Below are positions 58,775 through 63,418 of a stretch of 64,000 nt of DNA, one piece after another (position 1 is the stretch's first letter; the number at the start of each line of letters is the position of its first letter). Origin of the DNA: Rhizobium sp. WSM4643 (GTDB taxonomy: Bacteria > Pseudomonadota > Alphaproteobacteria > Rhizobiales > Rhizobiaceae); assembly GCF_025152745.1 (NCBI RefSeq), contig NZ_CP104040.1:4661501-4725500 (forward strand), given 5' to 3'. A program made the translations under genes and the position numbers. Below the pieces are notes generated by a model. It saw only the letters and a list, made by a program, of their open reading frames with translations, ran no database searches and was not told the DNA's origin.

Positions 58775-58969
58775 TCAGGCATGAAGCGGCTTCGGATGAC
58801 GGCGGGTCATCAGGTCATGGATAGCCAGCCGCACCTCGTCCGGCGAGCCGAAGCGCTGCTCGTCGAGGTCGTGGACATGAAATTTCACGGCGATGAACTT
58901 CAGCCGATCTTCATCGGGAATGACGATCCCGACGGGAACGCCTGCGTATTCGATAACTTGCTTCTTCAT
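58775..58969 (-). CDS. Hypothetical 64-residue protein
   Basis: No family is recognised. The protein starts MKKQVIEYAGVPVGIVIPDE, contains LKFIAVKFHVHDLDEQRFGS and ends DLMTRRHPKPLHA, and is compact and charged, without a signal or membrane helix. AGGAG lies eight bases before the ATG, and a strong terminator follows the stop, so it appears to be an independent one-gene transcript. A longer in-frame extension has no ribosome-binding site. Length and context suggest a small cytosolic or regulatory protein. Confidence 0.75.
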   Translation of the reverse strand: MKKQVIEYAGVPVGIVIPDEDRLKFIAVKFHVHDLDEQRFGSPDEVRLAIHDLMTRRHPKPLHA

Positions 58970-59492
58970 AGATAGAACTCCTGCCGCGCAACATGCGCAG
59001 CCATGGCGAATTGACTTGTCTGGTACCGTTGAAAGGAGGACGAACGTCACATTCGACAGTTCGGGCGGGAGAGGGCGCCCGGACGGTCATTGCCAAGCAC
59101 AGATCGCCCAAGGAGATCGGCGAGAATATCGATGTCTATCATGCTCGTTCCTTATGTTGGCGTTGCACTTGAGAGGTCCCGGGTAGAGCCCGGGATCGGC
59201 GAAGGCTGTCTTCGATAATCCACTAACTTGGTAGAGATTACCCGATAGCCTGTCAGAAACATATTCCGAAACGTGTCAAAATATCGACGATCCGAAAAAA
59301 TTCATTCCGTCGCAGTCCGAACTTACAGAAAGAAACATATCAGTCTTTCGTTAAATTCACATGACAGAATCGGAAGTTCGATCGATCACCGCGGCAGACA
59401 TAGGAAGCCTTGCCGTAACAGGCAATGGCCTATTTCATTAAAAATCGACATGCCGCGAAATGACCAATTTGGTTAATGCCGGAAGCCCTGTG
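58970..59492. other. 523-base stretch with no supported gene
   Basis: Nothing coding was found on either strand. It probably contains the promoter of the 64-residue protein gene near 58970-59100 and the downstream end of the long fusion gene to its right. The part from about 59200 to 59450 is AT-richer than its surroundings. Confidence 0.5.
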
Positions 59493-62414
59493 TCACCAGC
59501 CCTCTTCGAGTACCTTCTCCAGCATGTCCGCGAAGAAATCCGCGCTGTCGATGCTGATGCAGAGCGGTGGTTTGATCTTCAGTACATTCTGATGATCGCC
59601 GGTCGGCTGCATGATGACGCCGAGTTCGAGAAGCCGGTCGCAGATGGCAGCCGTCTCTTCGGTCGCCGGCTCCAGCGTCTTTCTGTCGCGGACGAATTCG
59701 AGGCCGAGATAGAGGCCCATGCCGTGCACGGCGCCCGCAATCGGATGGCGGTCGATCAGCGCGGCGAGCCGCGCCTTCAGATGATCGCCGACCGTCCGGG
59801 CATTTTCCTGCAGCTTTTCCTCGGCCATGAGGTCGAGCACTGTCATGCCGGCGATGCAGCTGACCGGGCTGCCGCCGGTGGAGGAAAAGAAAGTGCCCTC
59901 CTTCTCCAGCGATTGCGCAATCTCCCGCGTGGTGATGACGGCGCCGAGCGGATGGCCGTTGCCCATGCCTTTGGCGACTGTGATGATATCAGGCACGACC
60001 CCTTGCTGCTCGAAGCCCCAGAAATAATGCCCGAGCCTGGCATAGCCGACCTGCACCTCATCGGCGATGCAGAGGCCGTCGCGAGCGCGGACCTGCGCAT
60101 AGATTTCCCTGAGGTAACCGTCCGGCAGCGGGATGCCACCGGCATTGCCGTAGACCGATTCGCAGATGAAGCCCGCAAGGCCTTCGCCCGCAGCATCAAT
60201 TGCCTCCAGCACCGGCGTCGCCATGCCGAGATAATCCGCCGTCGTATCGGGACCACGGAAGTCGCCGCGATAGGTGTTCGGCGAAACGACGGTATGCACC
60301 CAGTCCGGCCGGGTGGTCGGTGCCTGCGGATTGTCGGCGATCGAGGTGGAGACGGCGTCGCTTGCCGCCGACCAGCCATGATAGGCTTCGAGCAGGCAGA
60401 GCATGTTGCGCGCGCCGCTATGGGCTTGCGCCAGCCGAAGCGCCAGATCGTTCGCCTCCGAGCCGCTGTTGACCAGGAAGACCGCGTCGAGCCCGTCCGG
60501 CGAAAGGGCGGCGAGGCGTTCGGAAAATTCCGTGATCGCGGCATAGTGGAAGCGCGAATTCGTGTTGAGCCGCAGCCATTGGGCGTGGATTGCTGCCGCG
60601 AACCTGGGATGGCCATGGCCGAGAATGGTGACGTTGTTGACCATGTCGAGATAGGCGCGGCCTTCGACATCGAACAAATGCTCCTTCCAGCCGCGCTCGA
60701 TCTGCGGCGCCGACGCGTAATAGTTCTTCTGCGGCCTTGCGAGATGCGCCCGCCGCCTGGCGAAGAGCGCGGCGGTATCAGGTTGCGGCGCATCCGCTTG
60801 CGGGCTGAGAAGCAGCGAGGGTGAAGGGCAGAGCACCGACCAGGCCGCCGCCGCGCGGGGTGTGGAAAAGAGCGGTGGTTCAAGACCCGCGACGTTGCAA
60901 AGCTGGACACGCAGCCCGCCGAGCGACGAAGCCTCTCCGGTAACCGTGCCAAGCGGATCGCCGGCGGCAATCTGGGCTCCATCCTCAACCGACAGGTCGA
61001 GCCCATCGAGATGCAGGGTCATGCCGCCGCTGGCGAGCGTCAGATGCTGGTCCTTCCAGCCGATACGGCCGGCAAAGGGCGCTGCAATCGCGCTGCCTGC
61101 GGCAAGGCATATGTCGACATGCAGGGCGCAGGTCGCCTGTCCCTTCGCGGTTCCCGCACGGGAAAGCCGATATTCGCCGTAGCGCGTCGCTGCCGTGCCG
61201 TTTTCGGTTGCCACACGGGCAAGCAGCCGCCAGTCCATGTCGGCATTTAGCCAGTTGCCGGCGGAAAAATGCGGGCTCCGCACCCCAAGATCGACATAGG
61301 CGATCCCGGCGGGATCGATGTCCGGCAGCAACGGCAGCCAACCCGATGCTTCCGGGGCGGCGACATTTGCGCCGGCCGCCCTGAGGATCGCGGCTTCCAT
61401 GAGTTCGAAGGGAACGGACATCGCCGTATCGAAGATCGCCCGCTCGTGCTCGAGATTGCCGCGGACATAGTCATTATCTGGATCGACCGAAATCTGCTGC
61501 TCGCTGCTGGCAACCAGAATGACCGCGCGTGCGACGGTCAACGGCCAGAGCGCCTTCAGCTCCTCGCCGGTCAGCGGATAGATCGCCTGATAGGCGGTGA
61601 CGGCTGGCAGGATATGAAAAGGGTCGCCATCCGCCTGATGCAGCAGCGAAGCGCATGTGACGGCGAGGTCGCCGACCAGCCAGCCGCGCATCATATCGCC
61701 GAAATCGATCACCCCGTCGGGAATGGTATGGCCACGGGCGTCGCGGTGGCCGACGACATTATCGCCGGTGACGTCATGATGCACGGCCTGCAGCCGAAGC
61801 GATGGGGCCAACGGCTGGATGCGGCGAATGGCCATAACCATGGTCTTGGCGATCCGGTCGCGCGCCGCACTATCGGTGATCGCGGACAGCAGCTGCACTG
61901 CGACCGGCCCGGCGCGCCTGAGATCCCATTGCAGGCTGCGGTCGAGACCGGGATGGTCGAAATCGGCAAGCGCCTGCGCCAGCCTGGCGCAGAGCGCGCC
62001 GAGGGCCGCAACGGAAGCCGGCGCCAGATAGGTCAGCTCCGTCAGCCCCTGGCCTTCCAGATATTCCAGCAGCCGGACCTGATAGCCCTGCCCACGCACG
62101 GTAAGGACGACGATCTCCCGCCCTTCATTGCTGCGGATCACCTGCGGAACGCGCGGCGCATCTTGCCTGCTTTTGAGGTGATGGATCGCCGCATTCTGCG
62201 CTTCGAGCTCGCGGACCTCGTAGGCTGCATGGCAGATCTTCAGGACGTAGCGGCCACGATCGCTATCGACGCGATAGTTTCGATCCTGCTGGCTGCCGAG
62301 TTCGGTAAGCGTGCCGGAGAGGCTGTAATGAGCAAGGAGGATCTCTTCCGCGTCGCTGGCGGTGACGTCGGGACGCGGCAGCGCCATGCGATCAACAAGC
62401 GCCTCGTCGGTCAT
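59493..62414 (-). CDS. Kinase / M23-like / class III aminotransferase-phospholyase fusion
   Basis: A 973-residue three-part protein. Residues about 20-345 form an APH/hydroxylysine-kinase-like domain (HHDVTGDNV near 212, VIDFGD near 235). Residues about 375-515 resemble an M23/LytM beta-fold (HVDICLAAGSAIAAPFAGRIG) but lack the terminal HxH, so catalysis is unlikely. Residues about 545-973 form a class III PLP enzyme with VNSGSEANDLAL, ADEVQVG and the PLP-lysine at about residue 815 (VAKGMGNGHPLG). Kinases fused to AGXT2L-type phospholyases were noted in studies of phosphohydroxylysine and phosphoethanolamine phospholyases. Start 62414 follows GGAGGGG. The substrate is probably a hydroxylated amine. 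Confidence 0.85.
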   Translation of the reverse strand: MTDEALVDRMALPRPDVTASDAEEILLAHYSLSGTLTELGSQQDRNYRVDSDRGRYVLKICHAAYEVRELEAQNAAIHHLKSRQDAPRVPQVIRSNEGREIVVLTVRGQGYQVRLLEYLEGQGLTELTYLAPASVAALGALCARLAQALADFDHPGLDRSLQWDLRRAGPVAVQLLSAITDSAARDRIAKTMVMAIRRIQPLAPSLRLQAVHHDVTGDNVVGHRDARGHTIPDGVIDFGDMMRGWLVGDLAVTCASLLHQADGDPFHILPAVTAYQAIYPLTGEELKALWPLTVARAVILVASSEQQISVDPDNDYVRGNLEHERAIFDTAMSVPFELMEAAILRAAGANVAAPEASGWLPLLPDIDPAGIAYVDLGVRSPHFSAGNWLNADMDWRLLARVATENGTAATRYGEYRLSRAGTAKGQATCALHVDICLAAGSAIAAPFAGRIGWKDQHLTLASGGMTLHLDGLDLSVEDGAQIAAGDPLGTVTGEASSLGGLRVQLCNVAGLEPPLFSTPRAAAAWSVLCPSPSLLLSPQADAPQPDTAALFARRRAHLARPQKNYYASAPQIERGWKEHLFDVEGRAYLDMVNNVTILGHGHPRFAAAIHAQWLRLNTNSRFHYAAITEFSERLAALSPDGLDAVFLVNSGSEANDLALRLAQAHSGARNMLCLLEAYHGWSAASDAVSTSIADNPQAPTTRPDWVHTVVSPNTYRGDFRGPDTTADYLGMATPVLEAIDAAGEGLAGFICESVYGNAGGIPLPDGYLREIYAQVRARDGLCIADEVQVGYARLGHYFWGFEQQGVVPDIITVAKGMGNGHPLGAVITTREIAQSLEKEGTFFSSTGGSPVSCIAGMTVLDLMAEEKLQENARTVGDHLKARLAALIDRHPIAGAVHGMGLYLGLEFVRDRKTLEPATEETAAICDRLLELGVIMQPTGDHQNVLKIKPPLCISIDSADFFADMLEKVLEEGW

Positions 62415-62533
62415 GACACCCCTCCGCTGCATGATTCGATTACCTATTGAAGGAGATAATCGAGTACTTGCCGCTGGCAGGCAACGGAAGATTGTCGTTC
62501 GCCAGCAAAAGAGATGCAGGGTCTAGGCGACGC

Positions 62534-63418
62534 TCAACCCATGCGTTCGGAGGCGTAACCGCCGGGGCTTGCCGGGAAGACCACGGTACGGTTGCCGTTC
62601 AGGAAGGTGCGGTGATGGATATGGGCATGGATGGCGCGCGCCAGCACCTGGCTTTCGACGTCGCGGCCGATCGAGACATAGTCGTCGGGCGACTGCGCAT
62701 GGGTGATGCGCGCCGTGTCCTGCTCGATGATCGGGCCTTCGTCGAGATCGGCGGTGACGTAATGCGCCGTCGCGCCGATCAGCTTCACGCCGCGTTGATA
62801 GGCCTGCTTGTAAGGGTTGGCGCCCTTGAAGCTCGGCAGGAAGGAATGATGGATATTGATGATCCGGCCAGACATCTTTTGGCACATCGCATCCGAAAGC
62901 ACCTGCATATAGCGCGCCAGTACGATCAGCTCCGTGCCGGTCTGTTCGACGATATCCATGATCTGGCCTTCGGCCTGCAGCTTGTTCTCCTTCGTCACCT
63001 TGATGTGGTGGAAGGGGATGTCGTGGTTGACCACGACCTTCTGGTAATCGAAATGGTTGGAGACGACGCCGACGATGTCGATCGGCAGGGCGCCGATCTT
63101 CCAGCGATAGAGCAGGTCGTTGAGGCAATGGCCGAAGCGCGACACCATCAGCAGCACCTTCATGCGGGCGTTGCCGTCGTGGATCTCGGCATCCATGGCA
63201 AACCGCTTGCAGATCGGCTCGAAGCCTTCCTTGAGTTCGGCAAGCGGCACGCCTTCCTCGGAGATGAAGCTCACCCGTGTGAAAAACCTGCCGGTATCGA
63301 GATCGTCGAACTGCGAGCTGTCGACGATGTTGCAGCCCTTGTCGGCCAGATAGCTCGAAATCGCCGCCACGATGCCGCGCGTCGACTTGCAGGATACCGT
63401 CAATACGTAACTTGTCAT
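62534..63418 (-). CDS. purU: Formyltetrahydrofolate deformylase
   Basis: PurU hydrolyses 10-formyl-THF to THF and formate, balancing one-carbon pools. The 294-residue protein has an N-terminal ACT domain (YVLTVSCKSTRGIVAAISSYLADKGCNI) and a formyltransferase-like catalytic domain with KVLLMVSRFGHCLNDLLYRW, ELIVLARYMQVLS, NIHHSFLPSFKGANPY and HYVTADLDEGPIIEQD. The substrate-binding and catalytic His/Asp appear present. It lies upstream of the fusion gene by 119 bases on the same strand. Confidence 0.95.
   Translation of the reverse strand: MTSYVLTVSCKSTRGIVAAISSYLADKGCNIVDSSQFDDLDTGRFFTRVSFISEEGVPLAELKEGFEPICKRFAMDAEIHDGNARMKVLLMVSRFGHCLNDLLYRWKIGALPIDIVGVVSNHFDYQKVVVNHDIPFHHIKVTKENKLQAEGQIMDIVEQTGTELIVLARYMQVLSDAMCQKMSGRIINIHHSFLPSFKGANPYKQAYQRGVKLIGATAHYVTADLDEGPIIEQDTARITHAQSPDDYVSIGRDVESQVLARAIHAHIHHRTFLNGNRTVVFPASPGGYASERMG

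Follow-up and report, generated by a model that had tools for sequence, protein, structure and literature searches.

A probable kinase-phospholyase fusion with a degenerate M23 domain in Rhizobium, and a related lineage without its catalytic residues

Introduction

Hydroxylysine kinase feeds an ammonio-phospholyase, and the enzymes concerned, the kinase HYKK/AGPHD1 and the phospholyases AGXT2L2/PHYKPL and AGXT2L1/ETNPPL, reportedly go back to work by Veiga-da-Cunha in 2012. Here we analyse a gene of Rhizobium sp. WSM4643 that joins a kinase and a pyridoxal phosphate (PLP) domain in one chain. The window, that is the whole stretch of DNA that was analysed, comprises 64,000 nucleotides of contig NZ_CP104040.1, and the gene lies on its minus strand at 59493-62414. 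The likeness to the known pair would be that of a kinase feeding a phospholyase, with a PLP domain in the ETNPPL clade, whereas the single chain, the extra domain derived from M23 peptidases, the outermost branch position and a different substrate loop set the Rhizobium protein apart.

Three further systems serve for comparison. The Arthrobacter phospholyase A1RDF1 (PDB 5g4i) has the same PLP fold and signature residues, but its solved chain is a stand-alone lyase and belongs to a separate sub-clade with split and solo genes. The aminopropanol kinase of the aminoacetone microcompartment (PDB 6ef6), which acts on an amino-alcohol, going by its title, is the best Foldseek match of the kinase part; it is, however, a separate protein with 17-18% identity over the structural match, and other small-molecule kinases score alike. 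The sister family PRK06148 (NF004799) shares the three-part order and has homologous M23 domains, but these keep the zinc motif and exceed the Pfam cut-off, and its PLP domain sits with ETNPPL.

The literature drawn on consists of PMC8154272, PMC4207490, PMC8007038, PMC9283133 and PMC12138971. In PMC12138971, reference 76 is Veiga-da-Cunha 2012 and stands between references on metabolic-pathway fusions and on fusion genes; judging from this order, the logic of kinase-phospholyase fusions has apparently been in print since 2012. No description of the three-part form was found in the literature searched, a search that left subscription journals mostly outside; one paper contained the name PRK06148.

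Results

The first ATG of the reading frame, at 62432, gives an open frame of 979 amino acids, to which all residue numbers refer, and the ATG at 62414 gives 973. The latter is preceded by GGAGGGG and coincides with the start of the PRK06149 model; the plus strand carries stops in the frame read. Pfam recognised APH at residues 42-270 (4e-27) and Aminotran_3 at 578-975 (8e-66) with nothing significant between them, while the full length matched NCBIfam PRK06149 (NF004800, model positions 1-972) with 1642.3 bits against a cut-off of 973. Since this 'equivalog' model is named only 'aminotransferase', the architecture is catalogued without an assigned function. PRK06149 exceeded its cut-off in 36 of the 61 genomes of a search among relatives, all 36 from the genus of the window (37 searched), and the fusion is thus not a chance frame. 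With a best named locus that is 98% identical, the host stands near Rhizobium leguminosarum; Rhizobium johnstonii 3841 has an orthologue as well (L089). A sample of 398 genomes of the phylum contained 56 with a match at E<=1e-80, and eight exceeded the PRK06149 cut-off; in the taxonomic family, 29 of 247 exceeded it. The records of Rhizobium sp. RCAM05350 and Sinorhizobium sp. K101 (L169, L170) hold the fusion gene in pieces.

By sequence, the best PDB match of the PLP domain was human ETNPPL (E 7e-97), followed by the Arthrobacter phospholyase (1e-74), and a Foldseek search with the full-length model again placed these two first. The class III fold (template modelling score against 6tor 0.91 by target) comes with an intact K821, which from family knowledge we take to be the PLP Schiff-base lysine. 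In a tree of 45 rows, PRK06149, PRK06148, direct fusions, split and solo genes and both known phospholyases form one clade (support 100/99). Outside it stand dialkylglycine decarboxylase and eight class III enzymes of the same genome, of which six carry an NCBIfam transaminase name or 'aminotransferase', while the remaining two, from the same superfamily, are labelled 'hypothetical protein'. Within the clade, ETNPPL groups with PRK06148 and the fusions of about 780 amino acids (98/98), and the Arthrobacter enzyme with split and solo genes (100/99). The analysis retained 49 of the 89 candidate proteins, and Brucella is not represented in the structure alignments (38 and 36 rows).

Nine signature columns (R560, N599, N600, R627, R666, G824, F849, G910 and K952) are conserved in all 34 lyase-clade rows, V601 in 33 and N623 in 32, and each of these residues occurs in at most one of the eight class III rows from the same genome. 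At the column of K952, three of those eight (GabT, OAT and ArgD) have arginine and the other five A, G or S; this arginine of GabT, OAT and ArgD binds the carboxylate of the acceptor. Both its place in the tree, apart from the class III enzymes of its own genome, and the lysine instead of arginine separate the domain from ordinary omega-transaminases. The genome also contains another class III match inside an unusually long open frame of 771 amino acids (G000:C1:1188528-1189751, +).

The kinase domain combines the APH profile with HxDxxxxN (HHDVTGDN, residues 218-225), a DFG-type aspartate and the ATP lysine, as befits an APH-type small-molecule kinase; K65 is presumably the ATP-binding lysine and D243 presumably the metal-binding aspartate. 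A Foldseek search with a model of the kinase and middle domains returned 6ef6 first (E 5e-14) and a homoserine kinase second. In its own genome, the domain had a single match at E<=0.001, the gene itself.

Taken alone, the middle domain stayed below the threshold for Pfam M23 (E 0.087), and its sequence gave four weak PDB matches, mostly designed ankyrin proteins. In a profile comparison (hhalign), however, it matched the M23 region of PRK06148 with a probability of 97.9% (E 3e-13, 164 columns). The zinc histidines of HxxxD and HxH are absent in all 17 aligned PRK06149 rows, the window included, and kept, together with GH, in all nine aligned PRK06148-type rows. This homology and the uniform loss indicate that the descent from M23 is real and that the lost histidines are a trait of the family. 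The first histidine of HxxxD has become alanine (15 rows) or proline (2), and the second histidine of HxH arginine (13), isoleucine (2), threonine or aspartate. At the former zinc place there is thus a conserved aspartate (that of HxxxD, kept in 13 of 17 rows) and an arginine, the latter in 13/17 family rows and in 34/34 rows of the genus g28 treated below; going by these columns, the two might pair where zinc sat. Kinase and middle domain were modelled as one confident unit (predicted local distance difference test, pLDDT, 90.2; predicted template modelling score, pTM, 0.91), and the full chain with less certainty (pLDDT 83.1, pTM 0.62). Among the matches listed in PDB structure searches with the two-domain model (50 each), all fell on the kinase part.

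An earlier note, made from the letters of this DNA, had described, without giving a strand, a 973-residue chain with a phosphotransferase part carrying HxDxxxxN, a LytM-like middle without HxH zinc ligands and a PLP domain with an intact lysine, and had linked it to hydroxylysine kinase and AGXT2L-type phospholyases. The start codon, the profile matches and the aligned rows confirm the description, and the tree supports the link. The PDB match, tree and signature residues also speak against a place of the PLP domain among ordinary omega-transaminases, the assignment that the same note had set against its own reading. Coordinates are given in Table 1.

Table 1 Features of the fusion gene and its surroundings in the window.
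Feature	Position	Strand	Basis or remark
Whole gene, APH-type kinase / M23-derived / class III PLP fusion, NCBIfam PRK06149	59493..62414	-	973 amino acids, stop included
Class III PLP domain, phospholyase clade	59496..60767	-	Pfam, PDB match, tree
K952, aligned with an arginine in the GabT, OAT and ArgD sequences of this genome	59577..59579	-	alignment
K821, presumed PLP Schiff-base lysine (AKGMGNGHP)	59970..59972	-	sequence motif; role by family knowledge
R627 of LNTNSRF	60552..60554	-	in 34/34 lyase-clade rows, 1/8 own-genome class III rows
M23-derived middle domain without zinc histidines	60768..61412	-	profile comparison, alignment
Kinase domain (Pfam APH at 61623-62309)	61413..62414	-	Pfam, structure model, Foldseek
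D243 of IDFGD, metal-binding aspartate candidate	61704..61706	-	sequence motif; role presumed
Catalytic loop HHDVTGDN (HxDxxxxN), residues 218-225	61758..61781	-	sequence motif
K65 in VLKIC, ATP-binding lysine candidate	62238..62240	-	sequence motif; role presumed
GGAGGGG, resembling a ribosome-binding site, ahead of the ATG at 62414	62419..62425	-	position counted by eye
Neighbouring gene purU (formyltetrahydrofolate deformylase), next upstream in the same orientation	62534..63418	-	open frame and NCBIfam/profile match

Kinase and lyase also occur together in other forms. Fusions of about 780 amino acids lack the middle domain (L079-L081, identical to L054-L056), and at eight loci (L175-L178, L181, L184, L082, L085) kinase and lyase are adjacent genes whose called frames overlap. 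Genes at the split-pair loci, in PRK06148 neighbourhoods and at the larger-scale loci of the dead lineage below were called with a simple purpose-made caller. What stands firm is that kinase and lyase recur together, and the M23 domain is optional: since both forms manage without it, it is dispensable for coupling, and we rejected the middle domain as an obligate scaffold. The scaffold proposed by the earlier note holds insofar as kinase and middle domain fold as a confident unit, but not insofar as coupling would need it.

PRK06148-type proteins differ in their M23 domains, which score 45.0-56.0 bits against a Pfam cut-off of 28.7 (L164, L163, L070, L078). In L164:14141-17191 (-), L070 and L078 an intact M23 zinc motif thus lies within a kinase/phospholyase chain, which leaves, on the evidence of the motif, a possible peptidase or metal-sensing activity. 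L077:8723-10795 (-) encodes an M23-PLP protein of 691 amino acids without kinase (M23 50.8 bits). PRK06148-type genes (L070:11442-18097, L076, L172) have as neighbours a glutamine-synthetase-like gene, a regulator of RpiR/MurR type and ATP-binding cassette (ABC) genes of branched-chain-amino-acid type, with an N-formylglutamate-amidohydrolase-like gene also near in L070 and L172; this neighbourhood suggests an amine pathway, without an assignment. In Sinorhizobium meliloti Ak57 (L166:12007-19189), a PRK06149 and a PRK06148-type gene are almost adjacent and convergent, with an amino-acid ABC binding protein between them. The three L079-L081 fusions directly follow a beta-galactosidase-family gene (Pfam on one; the others 65-74% identical).

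The gene neighbourhood was compared over 80 contigs, kept from 108, whose titles name Rhizobiaceae genera, 'Rhizobiales bacterium' or, in one case, Brucella (L165). purU lies directly upstream on the same strand in 56 of these loci; elsewhere we found a hutC-like context (19), an amidohydrolase downstream (2), others (2) or no upstream sequence (1). The earlier note had regarded PurU as a mere neighbour; it is more than a one-off, and we claim no functional link. The window further contains a peptide-type ABC permease and binding protein, a LysR regulator, an S58 peptidase, an acyltransferase fragment and a frame of 91 amino acids (58775-59050) without Pfam match.

Genus g134 offers another context. 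PRK06149 exceeds its cut-off there in 60 of 79 genomes, and in 24 of the best 30 of 61 genomes with a match aguA (agmatine deiminase) lies downstream on the same strand, with aguB between the two in 19 of these 30 loci (one of the 30 has only 54 nucleotides downstream). Pararhizobium neighbours include an amidohydrolase, an ABC transporter, a histone-deacetylase-family protein and aguB, and a histone-deacetylase-family gene directly precedes the split kinase/lyase pair in L082. These neighbours weakly favour a hydroxylated polyamine or agmatine-type amine as substrate; the hint is weak because loci within a genus do not count as independent and because neighbours of this kind are absent from the Rhizobium window. 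We would rank a hydroxylated relative of polyamines or agmatine, e.g. 2-hydroxyputrescine, which would yield 4-aminobutanal, above 5-hydroxylysine, and the latter above a small amino-alcohol (ethanolamine, 1-amino-2-propanol).

A search of 40 genomes of the Rhizobiaceae genus g28 with an odd orthologue, L083 (8799-11438, +), revealed 33 homologues, of which 31 have lost catalytic residues of both kinase and PLP domain; the other two (L237, L238) are live. The loci of this dead lineage are L083:8799-11438 (+), L191-L209, L211 and L226-L236. Neither the PLP lysine nor an intact DFGD is present in any of the 31 dead rows, and all have lost the Asp or Asn of HxDxxxxN, 16 of them both. The zinc histidines are absent in 34 of 34 g28 rows (the 31, one more dead genome and the two live ones), as in the live family. 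Thirty of the dead open frames measure 839-1028 amino acids from stop to stop, and that of G468 is cut to 595. In a tree of kinase and middle domain, from which L210, L213, L215, L239, L240 and L241 were left out as truncated or duplicates, 31 dead rows (from 30 of these genomes and one more, G623) form one clade (100/100) nested among live Rhizobiaceae enzymes, so that they apparently share one origin of the loss.

In branch A of this lineage, purU lies 105-177 nucleotides upstream at 17 of 17 loci, and 517 upstream of the truncated G468 copy. No purU was found in the stretch read at any of the 14 branch B loci, one of which has only 400 nucleotides upstream. At larger scale, 12 of 13 dead loci from both branches share downstream genes with the live loci L121, L134 and L162; branch B is therefore the same locus with purU gone. 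Since purU is gone there and the gene stays, we rejected PurU as a substrate clue. The one live g28 copy compared in its context, L280, adjoins instead the same genes as L124 (amidohydrolase/ABC type). Plasmid records gave seven matches to the dead protein, with a best identity of 33.5% where the whole place aligned and 35% for a partial one.

The ratio of non-synonymous to synonymous substitution (dN/dS) was estimated by Nei-Gojobori/Jukes-Cantor, a simple method applied to pairs that are not independent. For kinase, middle and PLP domain, 12 dead pairs gave 0.068-0.177, 0.075-0.212 and 0.133-0.284, and six close live pairs 0.093-0.212, 0.122-0.326 and 0.071-0.145. The compared dead pairs thus look as if under purifying selection, with a PLP part that would be relaxed but not free and kinase and middle domain constrained about as in close live pairs. 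The plain reading of the dead lineage would be a maintained non-catalytic function.

Several observations weigh against this reading. Single kinase residues persist in dead rows (Asp of HxDxxxxN in 11 of 31, Asn in 4, first Asp of DFGD in 19, ATP lysine in 9); hence the death of the kinase is only a prediction, and that of the PLP domain, with no lysine left in any row, is firmer. Some copies may be decaying, as the truncation in G468 suggests, and one of the 13 loci compared at larger scale (L283) is without the shared downstream genes. The distant live pair of window and L121 gave higher values (0.278/0.431/0.188 for kinase/middle/PLP), and five live-dead pairs, with dS often above 1, lay above either set at 0.318-0.521.

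Discussion

Computation gives the identity of the domains, the intact kinase and PLP residues, the lost zinc histidines, the place in the phospholyase clade and the confident unit of kinase and middle domain. The best reading, and one we hold to be probably correct, is a bifunctional catabolic enzyme that acts as kinase and then as ammonio-phospholyase. The N-terminal APH-type kinase would phosphorylate the hydroxyl of a 2-amino-alcohol of the HO-CH-CH2-NH2 type; both the order of steps and the vicinal amino-alcohol are suppositions here. The C-terminal PLP domain would then eliminate phosphate and release ammonia, presumably leaving an aldehyde, and no amino acceptor would be required. The M23-derived middle domain has no peptidase site and, packed against the kinase, may serve structure or regulation. 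With this, the phosphorylate-then-eliminate proposal of the earlier note stands as the best reading, on the strength of the phospholyase clade and the recurrent pairing of kinase and lyase, but the idea is apparently not new.

A number of points tell against this reading. The structural match of the kinase is unspecific: VIA-align gives 6ef6 a Z of 24.8, below the values for N-acetylhexosamine kinase (28.2) and homoserine kinase (26.4), no PDB chain matched the kinase sequence at E<=1, and the modelled fold is that of an APH-type small-molecule kinase, which does not give the substrate. Upstream and downstream contexts disagree across the 80 related loci, and the seven window neighbours searched name no substrate. 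Only two proteins of the phospholyase clade have a known activity, PRK06149 is its outermost branch, and its substrate loop reads YHGW..STSIADNP as against YHGH..SPYKF in ETNPPL; for these reasons, its chemistry could differ from that of the known phospholyases.

The last of these points would also suit an arrangement in which the two sites are not consecutive, the lyase acting on a non-phosphorylated or differently made substrate and the kinase being used otherwise, e.g. in regulation. PbfA sets a precedent: according to the literature, it is a class III lyase that acts on a hydroxy-aminoethylphosphonate without phosphate being released first. The NCBIfam PbfA model, however, scores only 179 bits against a cut-off of 525, and the association of kinase and lyase recurs in fused and split form, so that we consider this arrangement unlikely. 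Still less likely is an incidental fusion, in which an ordinary omega-transaminase would be joined to a kinase with an unrelated substrate. The class III fold and the 'aminotransferase' names of Pfam and NCBIfam agree with that view, but we rejected it on account of the phospholyase clade (100/99) and the signature residues, among them the lysine in place of the arginine of GabT, OAT and ArgD; the pairing with a kinase, moreover, recurs in separate genes and other fusion forms. That the middle domain works as a zinc peptidase is the least credible proposal, next to excluded in our view: it does derive from an M23 domain and keeps the HxxxD aspartate in most rows, but no M23 match exceeds the Pfam cut-off and both ligand histidines, present throughout the sister rows, are missing in every aligned family row, for which we rejected an active peptidase.

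The use of 5-hydroxylysine, with both activities in one chain, would be a sub-case of the kinase-phospholyase reading and is compatible with it. It has the closest characterised two-enzyme precedent, and in L165 a polar-amino-acid-type ABC permease and a pipecolate-oxidase-like flavin adenine dinucleotide (FAD) protein lie just upstream on the same strand. The pipecolate-oxidase match there is, however, far below its cut-off (162 of 600 bits), no lysine-degradation gene was found among the seven window neighbours searched (58775-59050 being without Pfam match), and other contexts are of polyamine, purU or hutC type. We therefore see 5-hydroxylysine as an unlikely substrate, if less so than the preceding alternatives.

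Since g28 keeps an orthologue at the same locus with kinase, zinc and PLP sites predicted to be dead, with one origin and with kinase and middle domain constrained, it may be speculated that the fusion protein has a non-catalytic function besides its enzymatic one. In that case the kinase/middle unit would let the live Rhizobium protein sense a ligand or bind a partner as well, and the degenerate M23 domain, with Asp and Arg at the former zinc place, would be a working part and not a relic. We regard this as a tentative proposal, doubtful on present evidence.

PRK06149 is thus a real catalogued family whose mechanism is most likely known chemistry. As far as the literature was searched, four points are new: the contrast in M23 between the sister families, where the family branches, the link to agmatine and polyamines, and the dead lineage. 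The logic of a kinase followed by a phospholyase is known, and the PRK06149 branch occurs in most of the genomes searched in genus g134 and in the genus of the window. PRK06148 is peculiar in that it combines, in one chain, an intact M23 zinc motif with two catalytic sites for small molecules. In the dead lineage, nature has run an experiment of its own, with the same locus, one apparent inactivation and purifying selection that seems to continue; with it, the idea that a metabolic fusion enzyme has a non-catalytic role can be put directly to the test.

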